This document shows, one piece after another, positions 3,730 through 19,297 of a stretch of DNA of 19,537 nucleotides. How positions within the stretch are numbered: the stretch's first letter is position 1; each line of letters opens with the position of its first letter. A program made the translations under genes and the position numbers. The notes below the pieces were generated by a model, which was given only the letters and a program-made list of their open reading frames with translations, was not told the DNA's origin and ran no database searches. The stretch spans positions 1-19,537 of the forward strand of contig JAICJM010000061.1 in assembly GCA_025928435.1 (NCBI GenBank), written 5' to 3'. The DNA comes from Thermoleophilia bacterium. GTDB taxonomy: Bacteria > Actinomycetota > Thermoleophilia > Gaiellales > JAICJC01.

Positions 3730-3819
3730 CGTAGTTGAGCGGCCCTCGGCGGGCGCCCTACCGCCGGGCGGCGAAGATCCGGTGAACAACCCTCGACGCG
3801 AGCTCGTAACTCGGGGAAC

Positions 3820-3864
3820 ATGGATCAGGTTTCCGTTTCTCAAGACGATGGGGGTTTGGCATGA
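3820..3864 (+). CDS. Possible 14-codon leader ORF
   Basis: ATG 3820 opens a 14-residue frame, MDQVSVSQDDGGLA, whose TGA overlaps the ATG of the secreted-protein gene (ATGA at 3861-3864). Its codons are noticeably less GC-rich than the surrounding genes. It could be a coupled leader peptide or simply chance, since the G-run inside it (3850-3854) also serves as the likely ribosome-binding site of the next gene. Confidence 0.2.
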   Translation: MDQVSVSQDDGGLA

Positions 3865-4340
3865 GCGGTTTCCGGTTCACACGCGCGGCCCTGCGGGGCA
3901 GGAGCTCGGTCGTCCTGGGGGCGCTCGCGGCCGCTGTCGTGTTCGCCGTCCCGGCGGCCGCCGACACCTCCCCGCCGACCGCCGACCTCGCCGTCGTCTC
4001 GATCCACGCGTCCGGGCAGACCGCGGCGCAGGGCTCTCGGGTCACGTTCACCGAGGTGATCCGCAACAACGGCCCGGAGACTGTCGAGATGGACACGCTG
4101 CCGCAGATCACGGGCGGCACCCTCGTCGAGGAGATCTGCGACCTCGGCATCTCGCCCGACACGCCGAACTGCGAGTACGGCGACGTCGCGCCCGGGACGA
4201 CCCTGACCACGAAGTTCGTCGTGCGGGTCACGGCGACACACGGGGCGCTGACCGTGCGCGGGGGCGTCGTCTCGGAGAGCGCCTTCGAGGACGGCAACCC
4301 GTTCAACCAGTACCGGACGAGCTCCGTTCGGATCGGCTGA
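3861..4340 (+). CDS. Secreted DUF11-like Ig-fold protein
   Basis: A 159-residue exported protein. Residues 1-34 form a signal peptide: a basic start (FRFTRAALRGR), a hydrophobic core (VVLGALAAAVVFAV) and a PAAA/DT cleavage site. The mature part reads as a single DUF11/CARDB-like beta-sandwich: ADLAVVSIHASGQTAAQGS, then FTEVIRNNGPE and the repeated-strand pattern LTTKFVVRVTA. Two cysteines (93 and 104) could form a disulphide. There is no LPXTG, lipobox or C-terminal membrane anchor, so it is probably released or loosely wall-bound. The start at ATG 3861 follows a G-rich ribosome site. Its last 38 bp overlap the end of the opposing MFS gene. Function beyond an extracellular structural domain is unknown. 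Confidence 0.8.
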   Translation: MSGFRFTRAALRGRSSVVLGALAAAVVFAVPAAADTSPPTADLAVVSIHASGQTAAQGSRVTFTEVIRNNGPETVEMDTLPQITGGTLVEEICDLGISPDTPNCEYGDVAPGTTLTTKFVVRVTATHGALTVRGGVVSESAFEDGNPFNQYRTSSVRIG

Positions 4341-5661
4341 CCGATTCGCGTGGACGTGCCCCGGCTGCGGCCGCGTCGCCCGGGTAGGTCATCCGCGCCC
4401 TCCACAGGATCGCGGCGCTCCCCGCGAGGGGCGCCAGCATCACCAGGAACGTCCACTGCAGGCCTGAGCGGCCGCCGCCGAACACGTGGTCGGACATGGC
4501 GCCGAAGAGGAGCGGCGCCATCGCCTGGGCGAGCGATCGCACGACCGTGCGCACCGCCTCCGCCCGGCCCCAGAGCCTGGCCGGCATCACGTCGAGCCGG
4601 GCCGCGTCGAGCGGCGGGTTCTGCCCCGCCAGCATGAACGCCGCCGCGATCAGGTACGGCAGCGCCATGAACGCGCCCGAGCTGAGGACGGCGGGCACGA
4701 ACAGCAGCGCGGCGAGCACGGCCGTGACGGCCGCCACCGTCACCCGGCCGCTGACGCGCCCCCGCCGCATGAGCGCGTCGCCCGCCATGCCTCCAGCCAT
4801 CACGCCGGCCAGCGCGCCCACGCCGATGATCAGCACGAGGACGTTCACCTGGGCCTGGTTGACCCCGTACTGCTTCTTCGCGAACTCCGCGCCGAAGGTC
4901 TGCAGCCCGGCCAGGAAGTAGTAGCCGAGCGAGCTGGACGCGATCAGGAGGGCGTTCGTGCGGACGCGCAGCACGTGGCGGGCGGCCTCGGGGAGCGACA
5001 TCCGGTCCGCGCCGTCGGCCGCCCCGCTGCTCCCCCGCGCCGGTTCCGGCAGGCGGGCGACGAGCCATGCCAGCGCGAAGGCCGGGATCGCAAGCACCAC
5101 GAACGCCGCCCGCCAGGAGAACACGGCGACGTCGCCGGTCACAACGAACCCGAAGCCGACTCCGATCAGCTCGCCGGTGAGGATGAAGCCCCATGTCCGG
5201 CCGCGCTCGCCGCCCTCGAAGTAGTCGCCGACGAGCGAGGCGACCAGCGGCCCTGCGGCAGCAGTGACGACCCCGAGGAAGATCCGCGCGGCGAGCAGCA
5301 TCTCGTAGTCGGAGGCGGTCGCGCTCCAGGCCATCGCCGCCCCCCACAGCCCGACCGCGGCCGCCAGCGTGGTCGTGCGCCGGACGCGGTCGGCGAGCAT
5401 GCCGAACGGGATCGTCGCCAGCGCGCCGACCAGGAGCGTCGCGGCGACGAGGAGCCCGATCTGGGTGTCGCTGATCCCGAGCGAGTGGCGCAGCTCGGTG
5501 GCGGACGCCCCGACCGTCGCGACGTCCGCACCGCTCAGGCCGAGCACGGCGGCGAGGACCGTGATGACCCGCGCGCGGTGGGCGCCTCCGAGGATCGTCT
5601 TCACGCGCTCCGCGGCGCTCCTGGCGGCCTCGGCGGCGATCGGCGCGGGGTTGTGACTCAT
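4303..5661 (-). CDS. MFS transporter, spinster-like type
   Basis: A 452-residue membrane protein with about 12 hydrophobic segments. After a 30-residue cytoplasmic leader comes the first segment, then LGISDTQIGLL and the intact motif A GMLADRVRRT (residues 87-96). The wording GxSDTQxGLL before motif A resembles Spns/spinster-like and hexuronate-type MFS carriers, but I cannot assign a substrate. The start is ATG 5661; the frame stays open far upstream to 6120 but is not protein-like there and runs across the divergent gene. The C-terminal tail (GARPRESVSRSERSSSGTG) is polar and is encoded where the gene overlaps the convergent secreted-protein gene by 38 bp, suggesting tail extension into the neighbour. 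Confidence 0.85.
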   Translation of the reverse strand: MSHNPAPIAAEAARSAAERVKTILGGAHRARVITVLAAVLGLSGADVATVGASATELRHSLGISDTQIGLLVAATLLVGALATIPFGMLADRVRRTTTLAAAVGLWGAAMAWSATASDYEMLLAARIFLGVVTAAAGPLVASLVGDYFEGGERGRTWGFILTGELIGVGFGFVVTGDVAVFSWRAAFVVLAIPAFALAWLVARLPEPARGSSGAADGADRMSLPEAARHVLRVRTNALLIASSSLGYYFLAGLQTFGAEFAKKQYGVNQAQVNVLVLIIGVGALAGVMAGGMAGDALMRRGRVSGRVTVAAVTAVLAALLFVPAVLSSGAFMALPYLIAAAFMLAGQNPPLDAARLDVMPARLWGRAEAVRTVVRSLAQAMAPLLFGAMSDHVFGGGRSGLQWTFLVMLAPLAGSAAILWRARMTYPGDAAAAGARPRESVSRSERSSSGTG

Positions 5662-5757
5662 CGGTGGCTGAACTGCACGGCGGCCACCTTGTCCGCTACC
5701 CGGTTCGGCGAGGGGGGAACCGCGGGACGAGGAGGCGCGTGCGGGTAAAAGACTGGA

Positions 5758-6852
5758 GTGCAGCACGGCGCCGATCCCTCCGACCGACCGTTCCGGGTCG
5801 ATCGCCGCCGCCTCCTGATCTCGGTCGGGTTCGCGCTCGTGCTCGCGATCGGCGCGATCGGGCTGATCGGCGAGGTCGCGAACTACGACCGGGTCACGCG
5901 CGCGCTGGCCCAGGCGCATCACGTCTGGCTGGCCGGCTGCCTCGCCGGAGAGGCGCTCGCCTACATCGGCTACATCCTCGCCTACCGGGACGTCGCACGG
6001 ATAGGCGACGGCCCCTGCCTCCCCATCTGGACGGTCACGCGGATCGTCGTGGTCGGGTTCGGCGCGTTCGTGCTCGGGTCGACGCCGGGTGGTCTCGCGG
6101 TCGACTACTGGGCGCTGCACCGGGCCACCGGGCAGGGCCGCGACGCCGCGCGGCGGGTGCTCGCGCTGAACACGCTCGAGTGGGCCGTCCTCGGCACCTT
6201 CGCGTTCGTCTCGTCCGTCATCCTGCTCGCCGGCCGGGCGGATGGCGTGCCGCTCGGGCTCATCGTCATGTGGCTCCTAGTCACGCCCATCTGCGCCGCC
6301 CTCGGCCTCTGGCTGGCCCGTCCCGAGCGGATCGAGCGCCTGACCTCGGAGCCGCGGCGCTCGCGCGAGGCGATGCACGGGCTGGCGGTCCGACGCCGGG
6401 CCCGGTGGGTGCTCGTCATCGCGCGCGAGGGCCTCGGCGACGCGCTCGCAGGGATCCTCGTGATCCGCGCGCTCCTGCGCGACCCGGTCCGCAACTGGGC
6501 CGGCGTGATCGGGTTCGGGGTGTACTGGACCGGCGACCTGCTGGCCCTCTACGCCGGCCTGCGGGCCTTCGGGATCCACATCGGGCCGGCCCGGCTGATC
6601 ATCGCCTACACGACGGGCTACATGATCACGGCGCTGCCCCTGCCCGCGGGGGGCGCGGGCACCACCGAGGCGACGATGGCGTGGACGCTCAACGTGGTCG
6701 GCGTGCCCTTCGCCCCCGGCCTGCTCGCGGCCGTCGCATACCGGATCTTCGCCTTCTGGCTGCCCCTCTTCCCCGCCCTCGCATTCCTGCCGCTGACCGG
6801 GGGCCTGGCGGACGACCTCGACCGGATTCGCCGCACCCGTTTGCCTCGATAG
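5758..6852 (+). CDS. UPF0104 / LPG-synthase TM-type membrane protein
   Basis: A 364-residue protein with about 8 hydrophobic segments, of the lysylphosphatidylglycerol-synthase transmembrane family (flippase-like domain, UPF0104). The diagnostic loop is LPLPAGGAGTTEA (residues 293-305), matching the family's PxPGGxGxxE signature; the GSTPGGLAVDYWAL region (108-121) is also typical. The soluble aminoacyl-transferase domain of MprF is absent, so it is the membrane part alone. Such stand-alone members are often suggested to move or bind lipids, but this is not shown here. The GTG start at 5758 has only a weak ribosome site. It ends 63 nt before the hopanoid operon, with a probable weak terminator between, so cotranscription is uncertain. 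Confidence 0.8.
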   Translation: MQHGADPSDRPFRVDRRRLLISVGFALVLAIGAIGLIGEVANYDRVTRALAQAHHVWLAGCLAGEALAYIGYILAYRDVARIGDGPCLPIWTVTRIVVVGFGAFVLGSTPGGLAVDYWALHRATGQGRDAARRVLALNTLEWAVLGTFAFVSSVILLAGRADGVPLGLIVMWLLVTPICAALGLWLARPERIERLTSEPRRSREAMHGLAVRRRARWVLVIAREGLGDALAGILVIRALLRDPVRNWAGVIGFGVYWTGDLLALYAGLRAFGIHIGPARLIIAYTTGYMITALPLPAGGAGTTEATMAWTLNVVGVPFAPGLLAAVAYRIFAFWLPLFPALAFLPLTGGLADDLDRIRRTRLPR

Positions 6853-6858
6853 CGGCTA

Positions 6859-6885
6859 GGGTACCGGCACATATCGGACCCTTTT
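6859..6885 (+). terminator. Weak rho-independent terminator
   Basis: GGGT-CCG pairs with CGG-ACCC (6859-6866 with 6875-6881, one bulged A at 6863) around an 8-nt loop, followed by TTTT at 6882-6885. It begins 7 nt after the stop of the UPF0104 gene and precedes the ribosome site of the next gene. This would separate the membrane-protein gene from the hopanoid operon, at least partly. Confidence 0.4.
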
Positions 6886-6915
6886 GTGTGGGCCTGGCTT
6901 CAAAAGGAGAGCGGT

Positions 6916-7371
6916 GTGAGGCATGTCTTCGCGAACCATGATCTTCGGACGGAGGGGTGCGGCCAGTTCATCGACGTGACCGAGGACGTCGAGCGCGCGG
7001 TCGAAGACAGCGCAATCACGAACGGCATGGCACTCGTCTATTCGCCGCACACGACCTGTGCGGTGGTGATCAACGAGCGCGAATCGGGCTTCATGGAGGA
7101 CTTCGCCGAGGTGCTCGAGGGGCTCGCCCCTCAGGCCGGCGACCACTACTACCGGCACGACGATCTCGAGATCCGCACGGAGGGGCTCGAGGGCGACCCG
7201 CATGAGATCCCCAACGGGCATGCGCATTGCCGCGCGGTGCTCATGAGCGCCTCGCAGACCGTCCCGATCGTGGACGGCCGCCTCCGGCTCGGCCAGTGGC
7301 AGCGGCTGTTCTTCTGCGAGCTCGACCGTGCCCGCGAACGTAAGGTCTTTATCCAGGTGATCGGGGAGTAG
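6916..7371 (+). CDS. yjbQ: YjbQ / UPF0047 family protein
   Basis: A 151-residue member of the YjbQ (UPF0047, secondary thiamine-phosphate synthase) family. Visible signatures are SPHTTCAVVINE (43-54), NGHAHC (100-105) and GRLRLGQWQRLFFCELDR (121-138), with the conserved histidines and cysteines. Some family members were reported to have weak thiamine-phosphate synthase activity, but the physiological role is unclear. The GTG at 6916 is preferred to an upstream in-frame GTG at 6886 because AGGAGA lies at 6905-6910 with ideal spacing. Only 7 nt separate it from hpnC, so it is the apparent first gene of the hopanoid operon. No specific link between YjbQ and hopanoids is known to me; it may simply share the promoter. 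Confidence 0.85.
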   Translation: MRHVFANHDLRTEGCGQFIDVTEDVERAVEDSAITNGMALVYSPHTTCAVVINERESGFMEDFAEVLEGLAPQAGDHYYRHDDLEIRTEGLEGDPHEIPNGHAHCRAVLMSASQTVPIVDGRLRLGQWQRLFFCELDRARERKVFIQVIGE

Positions 7372-7378
7372 CGCCGCG

Positions 7379-8236
7379 ATGATGGCGGCGCCCCCTCCCC
7401 CGGCGGTCAGCCCGGCGGGGTTGATGGAGCTTCGGCACGGCGAGAACTTCTCCGTGGCGGCTGTCTGGATCCCCCGTCGCGAGCGGCGGCTGCTGCTCGC
7501 CGTCTACGCCTACTCCCGGTTCGTCGACGAGGTCGGCGACGGGGGCCGCGACGACGCGCTGGAGATGCTCGCCGCGATCGAGCACGACGTGCGCGCAGGA
7601 GCCGCCGGCGAGGCGCGGGTGCCGGCGCTGCGGCCCGTCCTGGCGGCGCTCGCGCGCGGCGGGCTGCCCCGGGAACCCCTGCTCGACCTGGTCGAGGCCA
7701 ACCGGCGCGACCAGCACGTGCACCGCTACGAGACATGGGAGGATCTGATCGGGTACTGCCGGCTCTCGGCCGATCCGGTCGGCCGGCTGGTGCTCGCGGC
7801 CATGGGCGCCTCGAACGAGGTGACGCGCCCGCTGTCCGACGCCGTCTGCTCGGCGCTCCAGGTCGTGGAGCACCTGCAGGACGTCCGCGAGGACGCCCGC
7901 ATGGGGCGGATCTACCTCCCCGGGGCCGACCTCGAAGCCGAGGGCGTGTCCGAGGCCGAGCTGCTCGACGCGCCGGCCGCCGGCCGCGGCCTGCGCCGGG
8001 TGATCGCCCTGCAGGCGGCCCGCGCGCGGTCGATGCTCGTCGCCGGATCGCCGCTCGTGGGGATGCTCCGGGGCTGGAGGCGGCCGGCGGTGGCGGGATA
8101 CGTGGCCGGTGGCCTGGCCGCGATCTCCGCGCTGGCCGCGGCGGACTACGACGTCCTGGGGGCGCGCCCGCGCCCCGGCAAGGCCGGGCGGGCGCTCGAG
8201 ACCGCCAGGGTGGCCGTGCGCGGGAGGGCCCGATGA
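7379..8236 (+). CDS. hpnC: HpnC, hydroxysqualene synthase
   Basis: A 285-residue trans-prenyltransferase of the squalene/phytoene synthase fold. In the HpnCDE route this enzyme converts presqualene diphosphate to hydroxysqualene. The first aspartate motif is DEVGD (50-54) and the second is QDVRED (167-172) followed by RIYLP. The N-terminal ELRHGENFSVAAVWIPR is typical of HpnC. The start is ATG 7379 or the adjacent ATG 7382, with GGGGAG at 7363-7368 overlapping the end of yjbQ. The end overlaps hpnD by 4 nt. HpnC and HpnD are paralogues; I assign this one as HpnC from its N-terminal ENF motif and its position first in the pair. Confidence 0.9.
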   Translation: MMAAPPPPAVSPAGLMELRHGENFSVAAVWIPRRERRLLLAVYAYSRFVDEVGDGGRDDALEMLAAIEHDVRAGAAGEARVPALRPVLAALARGGLPREPLLDLVEANRRDQHVHRYETWEDLIGYCRLSADPVGRLVLAAMGASNEVTRPLSDAVCSALQVVEHLQDVREDARMGRIYLPGADLEAEGVSEAELLDAPAAGRGLRRVIALQAARARSMLVAGSPLVGMLRGWRRPAVAGYVAGGLAAISALAAADYDVLGARPRPGKAGRALETARVAVRGRAR

Positions 8237-9081
8237 GCGGCCTCGCCGTGGCCGCACCGTACGAGCACTGCGAGGCGGTGACCCGCGCGAACGCCCGCAA
8301 CTTCTATTACGGCATCCGCCTGCTTCCGGGCCCGCGCCGGTCGGCCATGTGCGCGATCTACTCGTTCGCGCGGCGTGTGGACGACATCGCCGACGGCCCC
8401 GGCACGGAGGAGGCGAGGCTGGCCGGGCTGCGCGCCGCCTCGGACGATCTGCACCGGCTCGGGCAGCCCACGGACGACCGGGTGATGCTGGCCCTGGCCG
8501 ACGCCGCGGAGCGGTTCCCGATCCCGCTCGACGCCTTCGACGACCTGATCGAGGGGGCGCGGATGGACGTCGTCGGCGCCCGGTACGAGCGCTACGGCGA
8601 CCTGATCACGTACTGCCGCCGCGTGGCCGGGTCGATCGGCCGGCTGTCGCTGGGCGTGTTCGGTCCGGCGGGTGACACGGACGCCGACCGGCGCGCGGAC
8701 GATCTCGGAGTCGCCATGCAGCTCACGAACATCCTCCGCGACGTCGGAGAGGACCTCGCCGCCGGCCGCGTGTACCTGCCCGACGAGGACCTCGCCGCCT
8801 TCGGCTGTGACTTCGCGGGGCGGCCCGCGCCCGACGCGCTCGCCGGCCTGATCCGGTTCGAGGCGGCCCGCGCGCACGGGTGGTTCACCGTCGGCCGCAG
8901 GCTGCTGCCGGCGCTCGACCGGCCCAGCGCCGCGTGCGTCGCGACCATCGCCGGCACCTACGAGCAGCTGCTGCGCCGGATCGAGCGGCGCCCGGAGGCC
9001 GTCGTCCGGGAGCGCGTGCGCGTGCCGATATGGTCGAAGGCGTGGGTCGTCACCCGGGCCCTCGTGGGGTCGCGGACATGA
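8233..9081 (+). CDS. hpnD: HpnD, presqualene diphosphate synthase
   Basis: A 282-residue squalene/phytoene-synthase-fold protein. HpnD condenses two farnesyl diphosphates to presqualene diphosphate. The N-terminal ARNFYYGIRLLP (21-32) and the motifs DDIAD (50-54) and LRDVGEDLAAGRVYLP (168-183) are canonical, with both aspartate clusters complete. ATG 8233 overlaps the hpnC stop (ATGA) and has GGGAGGG at 8222-8228. A frame open from 7735 is only the shadow of hpnC. The end overlaps hpnE by ATGA, so hpnC, hpnD and hpnE are expected to be made in step. Confidence 0.93.
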   Translation: MSGLAVAAPYEHCEAVTRANARNFYYGIRLLPGPRRSAMCAIYSFARRVDDIADGPGTEEARLAGLRAASDDLHRLGQPTDDRVMLALADAAERFPIPLDAFDDLIEGARMDVVGARYERYGDLITYCRRVAGSIGRLSLGVFGPAGDTDADRRADDLGVAMQLTNILRDVGEDLAAGRVYLPDEDLAAFGCDFAGRPAPDALAGLIRFEAARAHGWFTVGRRLLPALDRPSAACVATIAGTYEQLLRRIERRPEAVVRERVRVPIWSKAWVVTRALVGSRT

Positions 9082-10421
9082 CGCGCGTCGACGTTCTGGT
9101 CGCCGGCGGCGGGCTGGCCGGGATCGCGGCGGCGCTCGCGTGCGCCGACGCGGGCCTCGAGGTCGTGCTCGCGGAGCGGCGGTCGGTGCTCGGCGGCGCG
9201 ACGTACTCGCTGGAGCGCGAGGGGCGCCTGATCGACAACGGCCAGCACGTCTTCCTGCGCTGCTGCACCGAGTACCGCGACCTGCTGCGCCGGCTCGGGT
9301 CGGAGGCGATGACGGAACTGCAGCCGCGCCTCGAGATCCCGCTCGCGCTCCCGGGCGGCACCGTGCGCCGGCTGCGCCGGGCGCCGCTGCCCGCACCGCT
9401 GCATCTCGGCCCCGTCCTGCTCGGCCTGCCGGGGCTCTCTCCCGTCGAACGCCTGTGCGCGGCTACCGCGGTGCTGGCGCTGCGAGGCGTCGACCCGGAC
9501 GACCCGCAGGCCGACGCCCAGAGCCTGGGCGAGTGGCTGCGCGAGCGCCGCCAGTCGACGGCGGCCGTGCATGCGCTCTGGGAGCTGATCGTCCGCCCCA
9601 CCCTGAACCTGCGTGCCGGCGACGCATCGCTCGCGATGGCCGCGCGCGTGTTCCGCACCGGCCTGCTCGAGGGCGCGGACGCCGGGGACATCGGGTGGGC
9701 GAGCGCGCCGCTGCGCCAGGTGCACGGCGAGCCCGCGACCCGCGCCCTGGCCGCGGCCGGCGTCGCCGTGCGGCTGCACGCGAGCGTCGCCGCGATCGAC
9801 CGGCGCGGCGACGGGATGGTCGCGAACGTCAGCGGAGACGAGATCGGGGCCGACGCCGTGATCTCCTGCATGCCGCCCCGCCAGGCGGTGCGGTCGCTGC
9901 CGCCGGCGGCCCTCGATCCTGGCACGGCGGCGGCGCTCGGCACCTCGCCGATCCTGAACCTGCACGTCGTCTACGACCGGCCGGTGACACGGCTGCGCTT
10001 CGCCGCGGCGGCGCGGGGGCCGGTCCAGTGGGTGTTCGACCGCACCGCCGCGGCGGGCGGCGACGGACAGTATCTGGCCGTGACGCTTTCGGCCGCCGAC
10101 GAGCTCGCAGACTGGCCGACGGCCCGCCTGCGGACGCTGTTCGAGCCCGCGCTCGCCGATCTGTTCCCGGCAGCGCGGGGCGCGCGGATGGAGGAGTTCT
10201 TCGTCACGCGCGAGCGCCACGCCACCTTCCGGGCCGCTCCGGGAAGCGGACGGGCGCGGCCGGGCGCACGCACGCCGATGGCCGGCCTCTACCTGGCCGG
10301 ATCGTGGACGCAGACGGGCTGGCCGGACACGATGGAGGGCGCGGTGCGCAGCGGCCGGGCGGCCGCGGCGGCGCTCCTGGCCGACCGGTCGGCCGCGCCC
10401 CGGGCAAGGACGGCAGCGTGA
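9078..10421 (+). CDS. hpnE: HpnE, hydroxysqualene dehydroxylase
   Basis: A 447-residue FAD-dependent amine-oxidase-fold protein. HpnE reductively removes the hydroxyl of hydroxysqualene to give squalene. The dinucleotide-binding motif VAGGGLAGIAAA (8-19) with the acidic residue at the end of the second strand (VVLAERR) starts the protein. The substrate-side LIDNGQHVFLRCCTEY and the C-terminal FAD loop LYLAGSWTQTGWPDTMEGA match HpnE rather than phytoene desaturases. It starts in the ATGA shared with hpnD and ends in the GTGA shared with the prenyl synthase. With hpnC and hpnD it makes a complete bacterial squalene route. Confidence 0.93.
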   Translation: MTRVDVLVAGGGLAGIAAALACADAGLEVVLAERRSVLGGATYSLEREGRLIDNGQHVFLRCCTEYRDLLRRLGSEAMTELQPRLEIPLALPGGTVRRLRRAPLPAPLHLGPVLLGLPGLSPVERLCAATAVLALRGVDPDDPQADAQSLGEWLRERRQSTAAVHALWELIVRPTLNLRAGDASLAMAARVFRTGLLEGADAGDIGWASAPLRQVHGEPATRALAAAGVAVRLHASVAAIDRRGDGMVANVSGDEIGADAVISCMPPRQAVRSLPPAALDPGTAAALGTSPILNLHVVYDRPVTRLRFAAAARGPVQWVFDRTAAAGGDGQYLAVTLSAADELADWPTARLRTLFEPALADLFPAARGARMEEFFVTRERHATFRAAPGSGRARPGARTPMAGLYLAGSWTQTGWPDTMEGAVRSGRAAAAALLADRSAAPRARTAA

Positions 10422-11437
10422 CCGCGCTGCTCCCCGATCCCGTCGCCGAGGCGACCGCCGCCGTGATGCCGGCGCTCGACGCCGCGCTCGCCGGGCTGCA
10501 CCCGAGCCTCGCCGCGGTCGCCCGCTACCACCGTGGCACCGCCGACGCGGAGGGCCGCCCGGCCCCGCAGGGCGCCGGCGGCGGCAAGGCGCTGCGCGGC
10601 ACGATCGCCATGCTCGCGGCCGAGTCCGCCGGCGCCGCGTCGGCCGGGACGGCGGCGGCGACCGCCGTCGAGCTCGTCCACGACTTCTCGCTCCTGCACG
10701 ACGACGTGATGGACGGCGACCGCACCCGTCGCGGCCGTCCCGCCGCATGGGTCGTGTTCGGCGCCGGACAGGCCGTCCTCGCGGGCGACGCGCTCGTCGT
10801 CCTGGCCTGCCGCGTGCTCTCGGCGTCCGGGAGCGACCGGGCCGCCGAGGCGGTGGACACGCTGCTGGACGCGACGGCGGAGCTGATCGACGGCCAGGCG
10901 CGCGACCTCGCGCTCGAGGGCGCCGAGCATGCGTCCGTCGACGAGACGCTGAGCATGTGCGCGGGCAAGACCGGAGCCCTGATCGCGTGCTCGGCCGAGC
11001 TGGGCGCGCTCCTGGGGGGCGGCTCGCCGGCCGTCGTCGAGGCGCTGGCCGGCTTCGGCCGCCACCTCGGCATCGCCTTCCAGGCGCGCGACGACATCCT
11101 CGGGATCTGGGGCCGCGAGCCGGTCACCGGCAAGCCCGCCTACGGCGACCTGCGGCGGCGCAAGCGGACGCTGCCGGTCACCTACGCGCTGGCCGCCGCC
11201 GACGGGACGGCTGACGCGCTCCGCCGGGAGCTGGACGCCGCCCCTGACGCGCCGGAGACGGACGTGGAGCGGCTGGCGCTGCGGGTCGAGCGCGCCGGGG
11301 GCCGCGAGCGGACCGAGGAGCTGGCCGCGCGGGAGCTGGCCGCGGCGCTCGCGCTCCTGGACGCCGCCGCGATCCCGTCCGGCGTCCGCGACCGGCTCGC
11401 GAGCGTGGCCCGGTTCGTGACGGAGCGTGACCGGTGA
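10418..11437 (+). CDS. Polyprenyl diphosphate synthase (FPP/GGPP type)
   Basis: A 339-residue trans-isoprenyl diphosphate synthase that elongates DMAPP with IPP. The first aspartate-rich motif is DDVMD (95-99) with the following RTRRGRP. The second is DDILG (225-229), with glycine in place of the third aspartate, as often seen in this group. The usual GGKRLRP box is GGKALRG (55-61). Phe90, five residues before the first motif, is a bulky position associated with stopping at C15-C20, fitting a supplier of FPP for squalene; the exact chain length is inference. GTG 10418 overlaps the hpnE stop, and its end overlaps the cyclase start, both by GTGA. Confidence 0.88.
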
Positions 11438-13305
11438 CGACGCAGATCCATCGCCCACGGAGCGAGACCGGCCGGCGCGGGCTCGACCTCGCGGTCGACG
11501 CGCTGCTGCGGGAGCAGGCGCCCGCCGGATGGTGGAAGGGCGAGCTCGAGACCAACGTGACCATCGACGCCGAGGATCTCTTCCTGCGCCACTTCCTGGG
11601 CGTCCTGGGGCCGGATGTGACCGAGCCGACCGCCCGCTGGATCCGCCACCGCCAGCGCGACGACGGCAGCTGGGCGACCTTCCACGGCGGCCCGGCCGAC
11701 GTGTCGACGACCGTCGAGGCGTACGTCGGGCTGCGCCTGGCGGGCGACCGGCCCGACGAGGGGCACATGGCGGCGGCCCGGCGGGTCATCCTCGACGGCG
11801 GCGGGCTCGAACGGGCGCGGGTCTTCACGAAGATCTGGCTCGCCCTGATGGGGATGTGGGACTGGCAGCACGTCCCGGTGCTGCCTCCGGAGCTGATCTT
11901 CCTGCCCTCGTGGGCGCCGCTCAACATCTACGACTTCGCCTGCTGGGCGCGCCAGACCATCGTGCCGCTCACCATCGTCTCCGCCTACCGGCCGGTGCGC
12001 CGGGCCGGCTTCGGCGTCGAGGAGCTGCGGGCGGGCGGGCGGCCCATGCCGCCGCCCGAGGGCGGCTGGGAGCACGCCTTCACGGCGATCGACCGCGTCC
12101 TCGGCCGCTACCACCGCCACCACGTCAAGCGCCTGCGCGCGGCCGCTCTGCGCCGGGCCGAGGGCTGGATCCTCGACCGCCAGGAGGCCGACGGCTCGTG
12201 GGGCGGCATCCAGCCCCCGTGGGTGTACTCGCTGATCGCGCTCGCGCTGCGCGGCTACGACCTCGGCCATCCGGCGATGCGGCGCGGCCTCGACGGCCTC
12301 GAGGGGTTCACGGTGCACGAGGACGGCTTCCGCCGGATCGAGGCGTGCCAATCGCCGGTGTGGGACACGGGGCTGGCCGTCATTGCCCTTCTCGACGCGG
12401 GCCTGCCGCGCGACCACCCGGCGCTCGCGCGGGCCGGCGCGTGGCTCGAAAGCGAGGAGATCGGCGTCCGCGGCGACTGGGCGGTGCGCCGCCCCGGCCT
12501 GCAGCCGTCCGGGTGGGCGTTCGAGTTCGCGAACGACCTCTACCCCGATATCGACGACACCGCGGTCATCGCGCTCGCGCTGCAGCGGCTCGCCCCGGGC
12601 GACGGCGGCCCGCCGCCCGCGGTGCGCCGGGGCGCCGCCTGGGTGGCCGGGATGCAGTCGGCCGGCGGCGGCTGGGGCGCGTTCGACGCCGAGAACGAGC
12701 GCGAGCTGTGCCGGCGCCCGCCCTTCTGCGACTTCGGCGAGGTGATCGATCCCCCGAGCGCGGACGTCACCGCACACGTCGTCGAGCTGCTCGCCGGCGT
12801 CCCCGGCCACGGACACGAGCTGCGAACCGGCCTGCGCTGGCTGCTCGACGAGCAGGAGCCGGACGGCGCCTGGTTCGGCCGCTGGGGCGCGAACCTGGTC
12901 TACGGCACGGGCGCCGCGCTCCCCGCGCTGCGCGCCGCCGGCGTCGGCCGCGACCATCCGGCCGTCCGCAACGGCGTCGGCTTCCTGCTCGGCGTGCAGA
13001 ACGGCGACGGCGGCTGGGGGGAGGACCTGCGCGGTTACCGCGACCCGGATTGGCGCGCCCGCGGCGCCTCGACGGCATCGCAGACAGCCTGGGCCCTGAT
13101 CGGGCTGCACGCCGCGGGCGAGACGGGCGACGGCGTCCGGCGCGGCCTGCGCTGGCTGCTCGACCACCAGCTCCCGGACGGCGGCTGGGACGAGCCGCTG
13201 TACACCGGCACCGGCTTCCCGGGCGACTTCTACATCAACTACCACCTCTATCGCATGGTCTTCCCGGTGATGGCGCTGGGACGGTTCCGGGAAGTGCTGC
13301 CGTGA
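11434..13305 (+). CDS. hpnF: Squalene-hopene cyclase
   Basis: A 623-residue class II triterpene cyclase that cyclises squalene to hopene/hopanol at the membrane surface. The catalytic acid motif is DIDDTA (Asp372-Asp375). Several QW-type repeats are visible: QRDDGSW, QEADGSW, QSAGGGW, QEPDGAW, QNGDGGW and QLPDGGW. The C-terminal [16 protein letters not shown] is the canonical end signature of bacterial squalene-hopene cyclases. Length is normal. GTG 11434 lies in the GTGA shared with the prenyl synthase. Its own stop overlaps the GTG of the hpnG-ispH gene. No residue expected for cyclisation appears missing. Confidence 0.95.
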
Positions 13306-14798
13306 GCGCCCGCCCGGTCGTCGCCGCGCCGCTCGTCGTCGAGGCCGCCATGCTCCGCGGCGCCCGTGCCGACGCCGACGTCATCCACACGGGCATGGGG
13401 CCGCGGCGCGCCGCCGACGCGGCCCGCACGCTCGCGCGCGACGACCACGCCGGCCTGGCGGTCGCCGGCCTCTGCGCCGCGATCTCGCCCGATCTGCGGC
13501 CCGGCGACGTCGTGCTCGCAGACGCCGTCGACGACGGTGAGCGGCGCACGCCGCTCCCGGCCGACGCGCTGCTCGAGCACGAGCTGCGCCGGTGCGGCCT
13601 GCGCGTCCACCGGGGCCCGATCCGGTGCGTCGACCACGTCCTGGGCACGCGCGAGCGGGCGGCGCTGGCAGGCGCCGGCGCGATCGCCGCCGACATGGAA
13701 TCGGCCCAGCTGATCGAAGCCGCGGGCGACCGGCCGCGGGCCGTCGTGCGGGTCGTCGTCGAGCCCGAGGGCCGCGGCCTGCTCTCGCCGCGGACGGCGC
13801 TCGACGGCGTGCGTGCGCTCCGCGCCCTGCGGCGGGGCGGCGCGGCGATCTCCCTGTGGGCGCGAGCGCTCGCCCCGCGCACCGTGCTGCTGGCGGGGCC
13901 GCGCTCGTTCTGCGCGGGCGTCGACCGCGCCATCGAGATCGTCGAGCGGGCGCTGGAGCTGCGGGGCGCGCCGATCTACGTGCGCAAGCAGATCGTCCAC
14001 AACGTCCACGTGGTCGCGCGCCTCGAGCGGCTCGGGGCGGTGTTCGTCGAGGAGCTCGCCGAGGTGCCGTCGGGCGCGACGGTCGTGTTCTCGGCCCACG
14101 GCGTCTCCCCCGAGGTGCGCCGCCGCGCGGCGGAGCGCAGGCTCGATGTCATCGACGCCACCTGCCCGCTCGTCGCCAAGGTGCACGCGGAGGCGCGCCG
14201 GTTCGCCGCCCGCGGGGACTCGATCCTGCTGATCGGACACGCCGGGCACGAGGAGGTCGAGGGCACCCTGGGCGAGGCCCCGGAGAACATCACCCTCGTC
14301 GAAGGCCCCGAGGATGCCGCCCACGTCGAGCTCAAGGATCCGGAGCACGTCAGCTACCTGACCCAGACGACGCTCGCGGTCGACGAGACCCAGGAGGTCG
14401 TCGAGGAGCTGCGCAAGCGCTACCCGAGCCTGGCCTCTCCCCCGGCGGACGACATCTGCTACGCCACCCACAACCGCCAGCAGGCGCTGCGCGAGGTCGC
14501 GCACGACTCCGACCTCGTCCTGGTGGTCGGCTCGGAGACCTCGTCCAACTCGAAGCGGCTGGTCGAGGTGGCCGAGCGCGCGGGGACGCGGGCACAGCTG
14601 ATCGACGACGCGCACGACATCCGGCTCGCGTGGCTGGAGGGCGTCCGCACGGTCGGGCTCACGGCGGGCGCCTCCGCGCCCGACCGCCTGGTGTGGCAGG
14701 TCGTCGAGGCCCTCCGCGACCTGGGTGACGTGCACGTGGACGACCGCGCGATCACCCGCGAGACGACACGGTTCAACCTACCCCGGGAGGTGAGGTGA
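13302..14798 (+). CDS. HpnG-IspH fusion protein
   Basis: One 498-residue frame joining two enzymes. Residues 1 to about 180 are an HpnG-type nucleoside phosphorylase ([10 protein letters not shown], the mid-domain [19 protein letters not shown], and the purine-site motif ADMESAQL at 130-137), which removes adenine from adenosylhopane. Residues about 194-498 are a full IspH (HMBPP reductase, MEP pathway): cluster cysteines 204 ([10 protein letters not shown]), 288 (DATCPLV) and 386 ([10 protein letters not shown]); VHN His233; [11 protein letters not shown] with His316 and catalytic Glu318; [25 protein letters not shown] short Arg/Ala linker joins them. GTG 13302 overlaps the cyclase stop (GTGA). 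An in-frame GTG at 13884 (residue 195) could in principle start IspH alone, but it has no ribosome site. The usual arrangement is separate genes. Confidence 0.9.
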
Positions 14799-14799
14799 C

Positions 14800-15807
14800 A
14801 TGGCCATCCCGTTCAGACAGAGCGTTCGTATCGGCGCCTACCTGATGCGACAGCGCATCGCCCGGCGCGAGAAGTACCCCCTGCTGGTCGAGCTCGAGCC
14901 GCTCTTCCAGTGCAATCTGGCGTGTTCGTTCTGCGGCAAGATCCAGCACCCCGAGCACGTCCTGAAGCAGCGGATGCCGGTCGACACGGCCCTGGCCGCG
15001 ATCGACGAGTGCGGCGCGCCGATGGTGTCGATCGCCGGCGGCGAGCCGCTCGTGCACCCGGAGGTGCACGTGATCGCGTCCGAGCTCGTCAAGCGGCGCA
15101 AGTTCGTCTTCCTGTGCACGAACGGGATCCTGATGAAGAAGCGGATGGAGCGGTTCACGCCGTCGCCCTACTTCACCTGGGTCGTGCACCTGGACGGGAT
15201 GCGCGAGCGGCACGACCGGTTCGTCGAGCGCGAGGGCATCTTCGACATCGCCGTCGAGGCGATCCGGGAGGCGAAGGAGCGTGGGTTCCGGGTGTCGACG
15301 AACACCACGTTCCTGACCACGGACACGCCCAGGACGGTTCGCAACGTGCTGGACTTCCTGAACGACGACCTCGAGGTCGACTCGATCCAGATCTCGCCCG
15401 CCTACGCCTACGAGAAGGCGCCCGACCAGGAGCACTTCCCGGGCGTCGGGCAGACGCGGCGGCTGTTCTCGGAGGCCTTCGCGGGCGGCGGCCGCAAGCG
15501 CTGGCGGCTGAACCACACGCCGCTCTACCTCGACTTCCTCGAGGGCAAGGCCGACTTCCAGTGCACGCCGTGGGGCATCCCGAGCTACTCCGTGTTCGGC
15601 TGGCAGCGGCCGTGCTACCTGATGTCCGACGGCTACACGAGCACGTACAAGGAGCTCATCGAGACGACGGACTGGAGCAAGTACGGGCGCGGGAACGACC
15701 CCCGGTGTGCGAACTGCATGGCGCACTGCGGGTACGAGCCGACCGCCGTGCTCGCGACGACGGGCTCGCTGCGCGAGTCCGTGCGGGCAATGGCCGGGCG
15801 TGGGTAG
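14800..15807 (+). CDS. hpnH: HpnH, adenosylhopane synthase (radical SAM)
   Basis: A 335-residue radical SAM enzyme that adds the 5'-deoxyadenosyl radical to hopene (diploptene), forming adenosylhopane, the substrate of HpnG. The 4Fe-4S motif is CNLACSFC (Cys38, Cys42, Cys45) followed by the SAM-binding IAGGEPL. HpnH-typical blocks include VVHLDGMRERHD, QISPAYAYEKAPDQEHF and the C-terminal cysteine cluster CANCMAHCGYEPTA. ATG 14800 starts 1 nt after the fusion-gene stop with a strong GGGAGGTGAGG site. It is the last gene of the operon; only 19 nt separate it from the convergent SDR gene, with at most a weak 5-bp hairpin (15801-15805/15815-15819) spanning its stop. Confidence 0.95.
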   Translation: MAIPFRQSVRIGAYLMRQRIARREKYPLLVELEPLFQCNLACSFCGKIQHPEHVLKQRMPVDTALAAIDECGAPMVSIAGGEPLVHPEVHVIASELVKRRKFVFLCTNGILMKKRMERFTPSPYFTWVVHLDGMRERHDRFVEREGIFDIAVEAIREAKERGFRVSTNTTFLTTDTPRTVRNVLDFLNDDLEVDSIQISPAYAYEKAPDQEHFPGVGQTRRLFSEAFAGGGRKRWRLNHTPLYLDFLEGKADFQCTPWGIPSYSVFGWQRPCYLMSDGYTSTYKELIETTDWSKYGRGNDPRCANCMAHCGYEPTAVLATTGSLRESVRAMAGRG

Positions 15808-15826: not shown

Positions 15827-16579
15827 TCAGCCGAACCGGTCGACGAGCGGCCGGTAGAGCTCCGGCAGCGCGCCGCGGAGCCGCATCGGCCCGCCGAGCC
15901 AGCCGGGGACGACGACCTGGGCCCGGTCGCGCCGGATCGCGTCGACGATGGCGGCGGCGACGCGCTCGGCCGGCACCGGGCGGGGGAAGCCGCGCGCGTA
16001 GGGCACGCCCCGGCGCTCGAAGAACGGCGTTGCGACCGGGCCGGGGATGACCACCGAGAACCCGACCGGCGAGCGTGCATGCTCCTGCCGCAGCGACTCG
16101 GTGAACGCGGCCAGCGCCGCCTTGCAGGCGGCGTAGACCGCCTCCCCGCGGCCGCCGGCGTGGCCGGCGATCGAGCCGACGCTGACGACGTGGCCGCGGC
16201 CGCGCTCGGCCATGCCGGGGAGCAGCGCCCGGGTCAGCTCGAGCGCCGCCGTCAGGTCGACCTGCACGAGCCGCGCGATCTCCGGCTCCGGCATCTCCGC
16301 GAACCGGCCCGCCCAGCCGAGCCCGGCATTGTTGACGAGCACGTCGACCCGGCCGTGGGCCGCCTGGGCGGCCGCCGCCAGCGTCCCGGTGGCGCCGGCC
16401 TCGGCCAGGTCGGCGACGAGTGCGGTGCCGCCGACGCGCGCGGCCACCTCCTCGGTGCGCTTCGGGTCCGATCCGGCGGCGAGCACATGCGCGCCCCGCG
16501 ATGACAGAGCCCGGGCCGTCGCCGCCCCGATCCCGCTCGACGCCCCGGTCACGAGGCACACCGATCCGCGCACGTCCAC
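15827..16579 (-). CDS. Short-chain dehydrogenase/reductase (SDR)
   Basis: A 250-residue classical SDR using NAD(P). The cofactor motif is TGASSGIG (11-18), with NNAG at 83-86. The catalytic residues are Ser136 (VVSVGSIAGH), Tyr149 and Lys153 (YAACK). The C-terminus (PRPVPAERVAAAIVDAIRR and MRLRGALPELY) matches the broad DltE/YqjQ-like group often annotated as acting on fatty or other hydrophobic substrates; the true substrate is unknown. GTG 16579 is chosen because a TATAAC box ends 6 nt upstream, which would put the transcript start on the GTG. It converges on hpnH and is not part of the hopanoid operon by strand. Confidence 0.88.
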   Translation of the reverse strand: MDVRGSVCLVTGASSGIGAATARALSSRGAHVLAAGSDPKRTEEVAARVGGTALVADLAEAGATGTLAAAAQAAHGRVDVLVNNAGLGWAGRFAEMPEPEIARLVQVDLTAALELTRALLPGMAERGRGHVVSVGSIAGHAGGRGEAVYAACKAALAAFTESLRQEHARSPVGFSVVIPGPVATPFFERRGVPYARGFPRPVPAERVAAAIVDAIRRDRAQVVVPGWLGGPMRLRGALPELYRPLVDRFG

Positions 16580-16585
16580 GGCCCG

Positions 16586-16591
16586 GTTATA
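16586..16591 (-). promoter_or_regulatory. -10 box for a possible leaderless SDR transcript
   Basis: On the minus strand, TATAAC (16591 to 16586) is separated from the GTG start at 16579 by six bases (CGGGCC). Actinobacterial leaderless mRNAs commonly have a TANNNT-like -10 box at this distance. No convincing -35 box or ribosome-binding site is visible. The plus strand of the same site reads TTATACC and may serve the divergent acyltransferase gene. Confidence 0.4.
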
Positions 16592-16668
16592 CCCCGTCGG
16601 ACGGCTCCGGGGAGCGGCCGGAGGCGCCGTTCGGGCGCGGGCCGGTCGCGGCGCGCGTACTCGAGCGG

Positions 16669-17517
16669 GTGATCGCGGCCGCCAGCGCGGCCGGTGCCCG
16701 GCTCCCGCCGCGGACGGCGCACCGGCTGGCGGTCGCCGGGGGCACGCTCGAGTGGGCGGCCCGCCCCGGCAAGCGGCGGACGCTGGCCGAGAACCTCGGG
16801 CACGCCGTCCGGCTCGACCCGTCCGACCCGCGGGTGCGCGCCGTCGTCCGGCGCGAGATCGTCAACGAGGCCCACCGGTCGGCCGACCTGCTGTGGTCGA
16901 TCGGCCGGCCGGCCGAGCTGCTCGAGCGCGTGCGGATCGAGGGCCGGGAGGGCCTGCACGCGGCGCTCGCCGAGGGACAGGGCGTCATCCTTGCAGGGCC
17001 GCACATCGGCGGATGGGAGGTGGTCGTGCCCGTGCCCGCCACGGAGCTCGACGTGCCTCTGGCCGTGCTCGCGACCGACGACTGGCTGGCCTGGGCCATC
17101 GACGGCATCCGCCGCCGCGCGGGGCTCGAGGTCGAGTACGTGAGCGCGGGGCCCCGCCCGCTCATCCGCCGCCTCCGCCGCGGCGAGGTGATCCTCATGT
17201 TCGCGGACATCGTGCCCGACCCGGGCGTCCGCACGATCGCGGTGCGCTTCCTCGACGGCGTCGCCAGGCTCCCGGCCGGGCCGGCGGCGCTCGCCCGCAT
17301 CGCGGGTGCGGTCATCGTGCCCCTCGCAGTGCTGCCGCTGGATCAGCGGGCGTGGAGGATCGAGCTGGGCGACCCGATCCGCCCCCGGCCGTCCGCCGGC
17401 GGGCCCGCGGCCGCCGACCGCGACACGCTGCAGCGGCTCGCGGACGCGTGGACCGCCGTGATCCGCCGCGATCCGGAATGGTGGGCGGCCGTCTACCCGC
17501 TGGCGTGGGAGGGCTAG
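16669..17517 (+). CDS. LPLAT-family acyltransferase (PIM acyltransferase-like)
   Basis: A lysophospholipid-acyltransferase-superfamily protein of the HtrB/PatA type, which acylates lipid or glycolipid head groups at the inner membrane face. The catalytic HX4E is in GPHIGGWEVV (His112 to Glu117 counting from GTG 16669). Other typical parts are KRRTLAENLGHA near the start, EGREGLHAALAEGQGVILAG, MFADIVPD and ARLPAGPAALAR. The start is uncertain: the frame is open back to 16420 but overlaps the SDR gene there, and between 16580 and 16669 there is no ATG/GTG/TTG in frame. With GTG 16669 it is 282 residues, slightly short for the family. PatA-like function is suggested by the nearby PimA-like gene. 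Its stop TAG is shared with the opposing gene. Confidence 0.78.
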   Translation: MIAAASAAGARLPPRTAHRLAVAGGTLEWAARPGKRRTLAENLGHAVRLDPSDPRVRAVVRREIVNEAHRSADLLWSIGRPAELLERVRIEGREGLHAALAEGQGVILAGPHIGGWEVVVPVPATELDVPLAVLATDDWLAWAIDGIRRRAGLEVEYVSAGPRPLIRRLRRGEVILMFADIVPDPGVRTIAVRFLDGVARLPAGPAALARIAGAVIVPLAVLPLDQRAWRIELGDPIRPRPSAGGPAAADRDTLQRLADAWTAVIRRDPEWWAAVYPLAWEG

Positions 17518-18200
17518 CTTCGTGCCAGCCGCAGCCCGGCCCAGCCGAGGACGCTGCCGGCGAGGACGTCCACGACCAGGTGGTTCGCGGTGACGAGCAC
17601 GACCGTGGCGACCGCCGGCGGGTAGAGCGCCGCCGCGGCCCGCACGGACGGCCGCGAGCTGCAGGCGCGCAGCGATTCGGCGCTGATGACCGCCCAGGCC
17701 ATGTGGATGCTCGGCATGGAGGCGATGGGGTTGAAGAGCTGGGAGACGGCGCCCCGGTCGAGGTCGACGCCGGAGCCCTCGGACAGCGTGTCGACGAACC
17801 GCTCGGTCGCGCGCGGCGGGGCGGTCGGGAAGAGCAGGAACGGCACCTGGGCCGCCAGCATCGTGCCGGCGACGCTGCGGCGGAGCGGCCGGTACACGGG
17901 ATCGCGGCGGCGCAGGAGGACGGCCAGGGATCCGACCGTGCACGCGATATTCGCCCCGACGTAGGCCGCGTTCAGCGCCCCCAGCGGGACGCGCCCGATC
18001 GCGGCCCGCTGGATCGCCGGCTCGACCGCGATCCCGAGCCGCCGCTCGAGCCGCATCAGCCGGTCGGCGTTGCGGCGCGCGCGAGCGCGCCCGGCCGGGC
18101 TCCACACGGCCTTGCGCACGCCGAGCGCCGCCGCGTACGTGCCGAGGCCGATCGCGGCCTCCCGCAGGGGGCTCGGAGCGTCCCGCCGGCCGAGCCTCAC
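17514..18200 (-). CDS. PAP2/Aur1-like membrane phosphatase
   Basis: A 228-residue membrane protein of the PAP2 superfamily, closest in pattern to the Aur1/inositol-phosphoryl-transfer branch (PAP2_3). Motifs are FPTAPPR (124-130), SMPSIHMAW (161-169, His166) and NHLVVD (206-211, His207 and Asp211), the last two being the classic C2 and C3 phosphatase signatures. It has about five hydrophobic segments. GTG 18200 overlaps the glycosyltransferase stop by GTGA, so the two are coupled. Its TAG stop sits in a CTAG that also forms the stop of the convergent acyltransferase. It may dephosphorylate a lipid phosphate or transfer a phospho-head group; next to a PimA-like enzyme, an inositol lipid is a reasonable but unproven guess. 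Confidence 0.8.
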   Translation of the reverse strand: MRLGRRDAPSPLREAAIGLGTYAAALGVRKAVWSPAGRARARRNADRLMRLERRLGIAVEPAIQRAAIGRVPLGALNAAYVGANIACTVGSLAVLLRRRDPVYRPLRRSVAGTMLAAQVPFLLFPTAPPRATERFVDTLSEGSGVDLDRGAVSQLFNPIASMPSIHMAWAVISAESLRACSSRPSVRAAAALYPPAVATVVLVTANHLVVDVLAGSVLGWAGLRLARS

Positions 18201-19297
18201 GCCGCCCGTCCTCCGCGCGCGGCGCGGCGGTGCTCGGCCGCCTCGGCGTACACGTCCAGGATCCTCGGAAGCACGGCATCCCAATCGTATGCCCGGGCCT
18301 GCCGGCGCCCCGCCTCACCCATGCGCCGGAGGGTCGCGGGCGAGGAGATCAGCGCCTCGAGCTCGCCTGCGAGCGCGCCGGGGTCGCCGGCGGGGACGAG
18401 CCGGCCGCAGTCGTCGGGGAGCACCCCGGCGTACCCGTCGAGGTCGGACGCCACCACCGCGGTGCCGGCCGCCATCGCCTCGACGATGACGATCCCGAAG
18501 CTCTCCGCCCGCAGGGAGGGCACGCAGACCACGTCCGCGGCCTCGAGCAGTGCGCGCAGGCGCAGCTCGGACACGTGCCCGTGGGCGTGGACGCCGGGGT
18601 CGGCCGTGACCGTGGGGTCGGGCCCGGCCAGATCGAGGCGGGCGGGGACGGACATGCGCCGGAACGCCTGCAGGAGCACGTCCAGGCCCTTGCGCGGGTC
18701 GGCCCGGCCGACGTAGAGCAGCCGCGGTACGCCGTTGCCGTGCTCGGACCGCAGGCCGGCGGCGTGCGTCTCGATCGCGTTGGGGACGATCCGGTAGTCG
18801 CCCGGGAGGACGGAGGCGGCGACGTCGCGGGCCAGTGGCGACACCGCGACGGCCGCGTCGATCCGGCGCCAGGCCCGCCGCACAACGGGCCGGAACCGCC
18901 GGTACCACCGGGCGTCGGACGCGGACATGTGAAACGTCGCCACCACCGGCGCGTCGGTTGCGGCGATCGCCGCCAGGCACGGCGGCAGCATCGGCTCGTG
19001 CACGTGCACGATGTCGTAGCCGCCGCCGAGCCGGCGGGCCATCCGGACCAGCGACCAGGGCGCGATCACGGTGCGGGTGACCGAGCCGTTGTCGGGGAAC
19101 GCCTGGGGGCCGCCGATCGACCTGAACTCGGCGCCCTGGGGCGAGCTGCGCCCCGGGGCGAACAGGTTGACGGCCGCGCCGCACGCGCGCAGGTGCGCGG
19201 CCAGCCCGTGCGCGTGGCTCTGGACGCCCCCGGGCACGTCCATCGCGTACGGGCACACGACGGCGATCCGGAGGCCACTCACATCGCTGGTCGCCAT
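18197..19297 (-). CDS. PimA-like GT4 glycosyltransferase
   Basis: A 366-residue GT-B fold, GT4-family enzyme. The start VVCPYAMDVPGGVQSHAHGL (13-32) closely matches PimA, the phosphatidylinositol alpha-mannosyltransferase, including the GGV loop. Further PimA-like segments are VHVHEPMLPP, VVATFHMSASD (His123), VPNAIE, YVGRADPRKGLDVLLQAF (Arg198, Lys203) and the donor-binding EX7E in ESFGIVIVEAMAAGTAVVASD-type sequence (Glu265, Glu273). ATG 19297 has a strong AGGGGGAA site. In mycobacteria PimA works beside the acyltransferase PatA; an acyltransferase-like gene lies here too, but convergent. Mannosylation of phosphatidylinositol is the best guess; another GDP/UDP-sugar acceptor pair is possible. 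Confidence 0.85.
   Translation of the reverse strand: MATSDVSGLRIAVVCPYAMDVPGGVQSHAHGLAAHLRACGAAVNLFAPGRSSPQGAEFRSIGGPQAFPDNGSVTRTVIAPWSLVRMARRLGGGYDIVHVHEPMLPPCLAAIAATDAPVVATFHMSASDARWYRRFRPVVRRAWRRIDAAVAVSPLARDVAASVLPGDYRIVPNAIETHAAGLRSEHGNGVPRLLYVGRADPRKGLDVLLQAFRRMSVPARLDLAGPDPTVTADPGVHAHGHVSELRLRALLEAADVVCVPSLRAESFGIVIVEAMAAGTAVVASDLDGYAGVLPDDCGRLVPAGDPGALAGELEALISSPATLRRMGEAGRRQARAYDWDAVLPRILDVYAEAAEHRRAARGGRAA

Follow-up and report, generated by a model that had tools for sequence, protein, structure and literature searches.

A two-domain protein joining an HpnG-like nucleosidase to a second IspH in actinobacterial hopanoid operons

The release of adenine from adenosylhopane has been assigned to the "putative phosphorylase HpnG," as cited in the accessible text of PMC12583986, and precursor supply has a known bottleneck in IspH, according to the available sections of PMC10663253. 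In nodules of Frankia alni, abundance is raised for the squalene cluster FRAAL1427 to FRAAL1435 and for several proteins of the MEP pathway (PMC8951365, available text). The closest described counterpart of the protein reported here is the UDP/PNP phosphorylase-IspH ("UDP-IspH") of Frankia strains QA3, EUN1f, and EAN1pec, which is listed by Rao et al. (2015; PMC4746011) and which the accessible part of that paper calls single-species and possibly random. An earlier note on this DNA, made from the sequence alone, named no described HpnG-IspH fusion; given this listing, the protein cannot be called undescribed. Under the name HpnG-IspH, no fusion was found in the accessible text of the open-access literature (including PMC5462960, PMC4447401, PMC11218510, PMC12583986, PMC10663253, PMC13001223, PMC8951365, and PMC8837944), most subscription papers and all supplements lying outside the scope of that search, and a term search of the available text of PMC9745026 gave no mention of a fusion or of Frankia. 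What is new here is the likely identity of the nucleosidase half as the HpnG of a hopanoid operon, together with the spread of the fusion, its association with HpnH, and its decay.

The window, by which we mean the whole 19,537-nucleotide stretch of a Thermoleophilia bacterium that was analyzed, carries a hopanoid operon in the order hpnC-hpnD-hpnE-prenyl synthase-shc-[hpnG-ispH]-hpnH (Table 1). Neighboring genes of this operon overlap by 4 bases, and hpnH starts 1 base past the stop of the fused gene. The two families lie in a single uninterrupted frame of 498 codons from GTG 13302 to TGA 14798, and the predicted product of 53.5 kDa is recognized by Pfam over both halves, as PNP_UDP_1 at residues 27 to 141 (36.8 bits; cutoff, 25.1) and as LYTB at residues 195 to 471 (314.9 bits; cutoff, 24.5). 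The central observation of the earlier note, HpnG and IspH in one 498-residue frame without a stop between them, is therefore upheld. The six IspH residues that it had named (C204, H233, C288, H316, E318, and C386) are likewise all present, and they are identical in every row of a 117-row alignment of fused proteins. This alignment consists of 112 of 120 listed proteins, 8 having been dropped beforehand, together with 4 loci and the window; because its members were collected for their resemblance to the HpnG half of the window, degenerate HpnG halves could be missed.

Table 1. Features of the hopanoid operon and of the fused gene in the window, with related IspH loci
Feature	Position	Strand	Details
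hpnC	7379..8236	+	TIGR03464, 257.0 bits (cutoff, 250.45)
hpnD	8233..9081	+	TIGR03465, 270.2 bits, slightly below cutoff (278.6)
hpnE	9078..10421	+	TIGR03467, 395.1 bits (cutoff, 283.05)
Polyprenyl diphosphate synthase	10418..11437	+	PF00348, 182.8 bits
Squalene-hopene cyclase (shc)	11434..13305	+	TIGR01507, 718.1 bits (cutoff, 431.1)
Fused hpnG-ispH gene	13302..14798	+	498 aa; GTG start within the shc stop (GTGA)
HpnG-like nucleosidase half, aa 1-185	13302..13856	+	E14, GMG 31-33, DMES 131-134, acidic residue 154 (Glu here)
Junction, aa 186-194	13857..13883	+	No linker; W186 invariant across the 117-row alignment
IspH half, aa 195-498	13884..14795	+	C204, C288, C386, H233, H266, H316, E318
hpnH, radical SAM adenosylhopane synthase	14800..15807	+	TIGR03470, 511.6 bits (cutoff, 225.05)
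IspHs with HpnG-derived N-terminal piece			L022-L025, L027, L029, L030, L034, L036, L042, L050, L051, L055, L057, L058

A database search for proteins spanning both families, proposed with the first observation, returned many. One of the proteins listed is 95% identical to the window fusion and has the same join, the protein of a Thermoleophilia MAG (locus L001) is 92% identical over residues 1 to 498, and a protein of a Gaiellales MAG (P0012) is also among the near relatives. Recurrence of the same join in the 92%-identical MAG protein, in the 95%-identical protein, and in dozens of genomes excludes an assembly indel, a frameshift, or a chance join. Compared with L001, the window has a dN/dS of 0.16 (0.048/0.303) in the HpnG half and 0.17 (0.046/0.275) in the IspH half; the two halves are both conserved and under equal purifying selection, and from these low, near-equal values it follows that both have been kept.

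Around the operon, positions 5758 to 7371, directly 5' of hpnC, hold genes for a flippase-like membrane protein (TIGR00374, below cutoff) and a YjbQ-family protein (above cutoff). Positions 15827 to 19297, 3' of hpnH, hold an SDR gene (-), a Lip_A_acyltrans gene (+), a PAP2_3 gene (-), and a glycosyltransferase-like gene (-) for which all NCBIfam models are below cutoff; we take these genes to resemble a phosphatidylinositol mannoside locus. Among NCBIfam models, the prenyl synthase at 10418 to 11437 is matched best by NF041169, which describes family 2 encapsulin cargo prenyltransferases (340.9 bits, below the cutoff of 450), and no encapsulin was found among the window proteins scanned.

The fusion is genuine, and many actinobacteria that make hopanoids have it. 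One-frame HpnG plus IspH was observed in 27 of 80 loci kept out of at least 558 confirmed relatives, L039 being left out of the 27 because it is truncated by a contig start. When a protein search was scored on residues 1 to 190 only, 194 of 7998 scored candidates had E values of 1e-3 or lower; all 120 proteins listed of these 194 have an IspH domain, and all except P0017 have a precomputed PNP_UDP_1 domain. The taxonomic spread, which had been suggested for mapping, was determined in two class samples: a near-full match to the fusion profile was present in 47 of the 394 genomes sampled from the class of the Prauserella genome G004 (a class that we take to be Actinomycetes) and in 19 of the 299 sampled from that of the Thermoleophilia MAG G001, frequencies that are not those of the phylum, since the samples were centered on known carriers of the fusion. 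Fusion genomes already known are inside these counts (G004, G005, G022, G024, and G027 in the former; G001, G010, and G012 in the latter). All but one of the 47 matches begin at profile position 6 or earlier, G560 beginning at 45; a fusion-like match in G467, truncated by a contig end, was excluded, and one of the 19 (G146) stops at position 489 of 499.

The occurrence of the fusion is tied to that of HpnH. HpnH scored above cutoff in 92 of the 394 and 90 of the 299 genomes (182 of 693 overall) and in none of 14 control genomes. It was present in all 66 genomes with a near-full fusion (47 plus 19), and a near-full fusion was found in 0 of the 511 genomes without HpnH, one of which is G467 with its truncated match. 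HpnH without the fusion is common, accounting for 45 of the 92 HpnH genomes in the class of G004 and 71 of the 90 in the class of G001. The two genes are also close together: in the class of G001, no more than 100 bp separates HpnH from the fusion in 17 of 19 genomes, and in the class of G004, HpnH follows the fusion within 2.5 kb in 40 of 47.

The nucleosidase half is likely the hopanoid operon's HpnG, and for this identity synteny is stronger evidence than the score of the curated model. Of the curated families, TIGR03468 (HpnG) matches this half best, at 74.7 bits against a cutoff of 187.1. No genome of the 299 in the class of G001 reached that cutoff, free HpnG-like genes included, and at an E value of 1e-3 the model matched 12 of the 14 control genomes, none of them above cutoff, so the model alone cannot separate HpnG from other nucleosidases. 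Among stretches that carry HpnH and lack the fusion, a free HpnG adjoins HpnH in 10 of 10 from the class of G001 (L207 to L216) and is present in 9 of 11 from the class of G004, with IspH on 0 of 10 and 0 of 11, respectively; L222 and L223 have HpnH with neither HpnG nor SHC on the stretch. These 21 stretches were hand-picked from the 71 and 45 nonfusion HpnH genomes and represent 20 fusion-free genomes plus a second contig (L207) of G262, whose fusion is on another contig. Since a free HpnG stands beside HpnH where the fusion is lacking, the fused half occupies the normal place of HpnG.

In the alignment of fusions, DMES is present in all 117 rows and E14 in 116, the remaining row having a gap there. 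Residue 154 is acidic in all 117 (96 Asp and 21 Glu), Glu being the residue of the window and of the aligned proteins nearest to it. Twenty HpnG domains, fused and free, were combined into a profile and compared with solved structures. MTA/SAH nucleosidases came out on top (best E value, 8e-15), with further matches to AMP nucleosidases and to nucleoside phosphorylases acting on uridine and purines. The EME stretch of the MTA/SAH nucleosidases aligns with DMES and the Asp of their RAVSD with position 154; in those enzymes this Asp is the catalytic acid, and the Glu binds ribose. We infer that the nucleosidase half acts on adenosylhopane.

The IspH half scores above cutoff with both NF002189 (457.8 bits; cutoff, 444) and TIGR00216 (311.1 bits; cutoff, 187.85), and residues 194 to 498 align with solved IspH structures. 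H266, H313, and T357 are, like the six residues given above, identical in 117 of 117 aligned fusions; we take C204, C288, and C386 to be the IspH cluster cysteines and H233, H266, H316, E318, and T357 to be substrate residues. The question of a second ispH in the genome can be answered affirmatively for the relatives of the window: at least one further IspH is present in 24 of 27 fusion host genomes (G010, G023, and G026 have a single IspH match each), and each of the 47 fusion genomes in the class of G004 has at least two matches. The nearest genome, G001, has three further matches, two of which are on one contig and possibly an assembly duplication. The motif of the fused IspHs (n = 28) is PRSFCAG in 25, PRASCAG in 2, and PRAFCAG in 1, and that of the second IspH copies of fusion and remnant genomes in the tree is PRGYCAG in 41 of 41. 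Branches with 100/100 support split the two lineages in the IspH tree (120 rows, 11 loci having been excluded beforehand as duplicate, partial, or cut); the fused IspH is a second IspH, of a lineage separate from the further copy. Prauserella flavalba (L004, from G004) has three IspH matches: one is the fusion, one is of the PRGYCAG type, and one is a copy whose match to the fusion profile begins at position 178.

IspHs of the fused lineage are also found beside DXS, IspG, terpene synthases, and encapsulins. That other MEP genes travel with the fusion can be rejected, because tblastn searches with one query each placed DXS on 1 (L026) and IspG and encapsulin on 0 of the 27 fused loci, and there were no MEP genes among the Pfam-scanned flanking genes of four fused loci.

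Our preferred reading, to which we assign a probability of about 0.6, is that the HpnG of the hopanoid operon has been joined to a dedicated second IspH that would supplement precursor supply in a fixed ratio with the hopanoid enzymes. The HpnG half would remove adenine from adenosylhopane, and the IspH half would convert HMBPP to IPP and DMAPP as a dedicated second copy. An extra copy of a rate-limiting Fe-S enzyme would in this way be co-induced with the hopanoid operon, carried by a working HpnG; both halves would be active, and the benefit would be the extra precursor supply. Starting from IPP and DMAPP, prenyl chain building and the reactions of HpnC/D/E, SHC, and HpnH would all come before that of HpnG, and because the two reactions are many steps apart, direct channeling between the halves is not expected. 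That one protein might act at either end of the pathway, as the earlier note proposed, is plausible, but the window has Glu at the nucleosidase Asp position. Counting against our reading are this Glu154, the low score of the HpnG half with the curated model, the lost nucleosidase residues of G215 (described below), the many HpnH genomes that do not have the fusion, and the truncated fusion-like match of G467 in a genome where HpnH was not matched.

Apparent decay of either half was encountered among relatives. The operon of G215 (L205) has the order hpnC-D-E-[hpnG-ispH]-shc-hpnG-hpnH; in its fused gene (6685 to 8190), E14 is replaced by Asp, DMES by DTGS, and the acidic residue by Arg, and the free HpnG of the same operon (10063 to 10647) has Glu, DMES, and Asp intact. 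Since the fused nucleosidase of G215 lacks key residues, its activity is not always needed. The fusion of G262 keeps the three acidic residues (Glu, DTES, and VVD) in a genome with a free HpnG beside HpnH on the other contig, so that with a second HpnG present the fused site decayed in one case and was kept in the other. These two cases fit a fused domain that is the working HpnG where there is no second HpnG. At L226 (approximately 3412 to 6380, plus strand), an HpnG frame whose nearest relative in the tree is the fused HpnG of Microtetraspora has low-complexity TTGADH-like repeats in the place of IspH; here, as at L214, the IspH half has apparently been lost.

A profile of the fused HpnG domain gave significant matches upstream of IspH in 15 same-lineage IspHs out of 53 nonfusion frames (Table 1). 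Ten of the 15 have extensions of 95 to 135 residues that, as a profile, match HpnG positions 54 to 112 (56 columns; hhalign, 96.8%); catalytic motifs are absent from them, and their last helix retains Trp in 9 of 10. Pfam recognized no domain in the N-terminal extension of the three tested. By tblastn with two shell proteins, both identified as encapsulins by Pfam, a type-2 encapsulin gene was located on the fetched stretch of 10 of the 15 extension loci and 20 of 24 lone PRS-type copies; the remaining 12 lone IspH rows are of the housekeeping type with no encapsulin gene by the same search, and some of the other extension loci carry DXS or IspG. Type-2 encapsulin operons often contain precursor genes, according to the accessible text of PMC8346489. 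Fused forms are paraphyletic in the free IspH tree, with remnant and lone copies nested inside them, and the AU test did not reject a single fused clade (p, 0.105; log-likelihood difference, 27), so that an order of "fused first, eroded later" leans mainly on the remnants themselves. Deep branches of the HpnG-domain tree are poorly resolved (row L174 of this tree, labeled unfused by the motif rule, is actually fused).

The main rival to our reading, which we regard as unlikely, is that the nucleosidase domain is now mainly a noncatalytic N-terminal partner of IspH, serving folding, solubility, oxygen protection, or docking, with catalysis optional. The degenerate fused site of G215 next to an intact free HpnG speaks for it, as do the lack of a linker at the join and the encapsulin-operon IspHs, which keep an HpnG-matching extension with its Trp helix and no catalytic motifs. 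Conservation of the nucleosidase residues in the 117 aligned fusions (a set collected by HpnG similarity) and the low dN/dS of the HpnG half argue against it. An evolutionary version of the same idea, also doubtful, is that the HpnG domain has been exapted to serve a specialized IspH as its structural partner; the domain could lose its active site yet stay, as in G215, and would have shrunk to an N-terminal extension of approximately 100 residues in type-2 encapsulin terpene operons, where it may dock IspH to the shell or to a neighboring prenyl synthase.

Less credible still is neutral operon compaction, in which a stop codon was lost between neighbors and the fusion is a passenger without gain. 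Operon genes that overlap by four bases or abut would suit such a history, as would the seeming loss or erosion of the nucleosidase or IspH half in some related lineages, but IspH stands next to HpnG in none of the 21 nonfusion stretches, so that at least two events would be needed for the fusion, which has moreover been retained in two classes, all 66 of its genomes there having HpnH. We consider it very improbable that the HpnG domain is a sensor through which bound adenosylhopane, ribosylhopane, or adenine tunes IspH flux, for which the joining of the domains without a linker is the sole point in favor. Translation of two proteins, HpnG and an IspH started internally at GTG 13884, appears equally remote: an in-frame GTG stands exactly at 13884 and at the same codon in many relatives, but that of the window has no Shine-Dalgarno match. 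Of 45 fused genes found by the motif rule (46 given), 11 lack any start codon in the 30 codons that precede the IspH motif, and of the 34 that have one only 5 have a 4-base Shine-Dalgarno match; a separately translated IspH, which the earlier note had held out as an alternative, is thus disfavored.

An HpnG joined to a dedicated second IspH, as we prefer to read this locus, would be a natural chain tying extra IspH to one lipid product and hence a lead for engineering, as well as a lead on why some actinobacteria invest in hopanoids. The named fused proteins among those listed are all called IspH, except for P0016 and P0090 ("hypothetical"), and since HpnG-bearing proteins carry IspH names, name-based surveys of hopanoid genes will miss HpnG in these groups. 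Among free HpnG proteins (P0122 to P0241, mostly of about 196 aa), 76 of 120 listed go by the JGI name "4-hydroxy-3-methylbut-2-en(-1-)yl diphosphate reductase," probably a misannotation that has spread from the fusion.

Compared with known systems, the MTA/SAH nucleosidases (PDB 3bl6 and 1jys) match the HpnG half as a profile, their EME and RAVSD aligning with its DMES and RVVVD/E; they differ from it in substrate and length, and the kinship is through the profile only. IspH is also part of a longer chain in IspH-UbiA (PMC4746011) and IspH-S1 (NF000907), but there, as far as the accessible descriptions go, the partner lies 3' of IspH and is unrelated to HpnG. In subdivision 1 Acidobacteria, ispH lies within the shc-hpnH cluster, beside hopanoid genes as in the window, whereas the available text of PMC5462960 gives it as a separate gene and mentions hpnCD as the fusion. 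UDP-IspH has the same two domains in one chain as the window protein, and Parafrankia EUN1f is our locus L005, but in the accessible part of PMC4746011 it is neither named HpnG nor placed in a hopanoid operon, and its spread is not given. The free-standing HpnG (TIGR03468, hopanoid-associated phosphorylase) is without IspH, and the fused form of the window differs from it by a Glu at the Asp position; the two share the same motifs and the same position beside HpnH.
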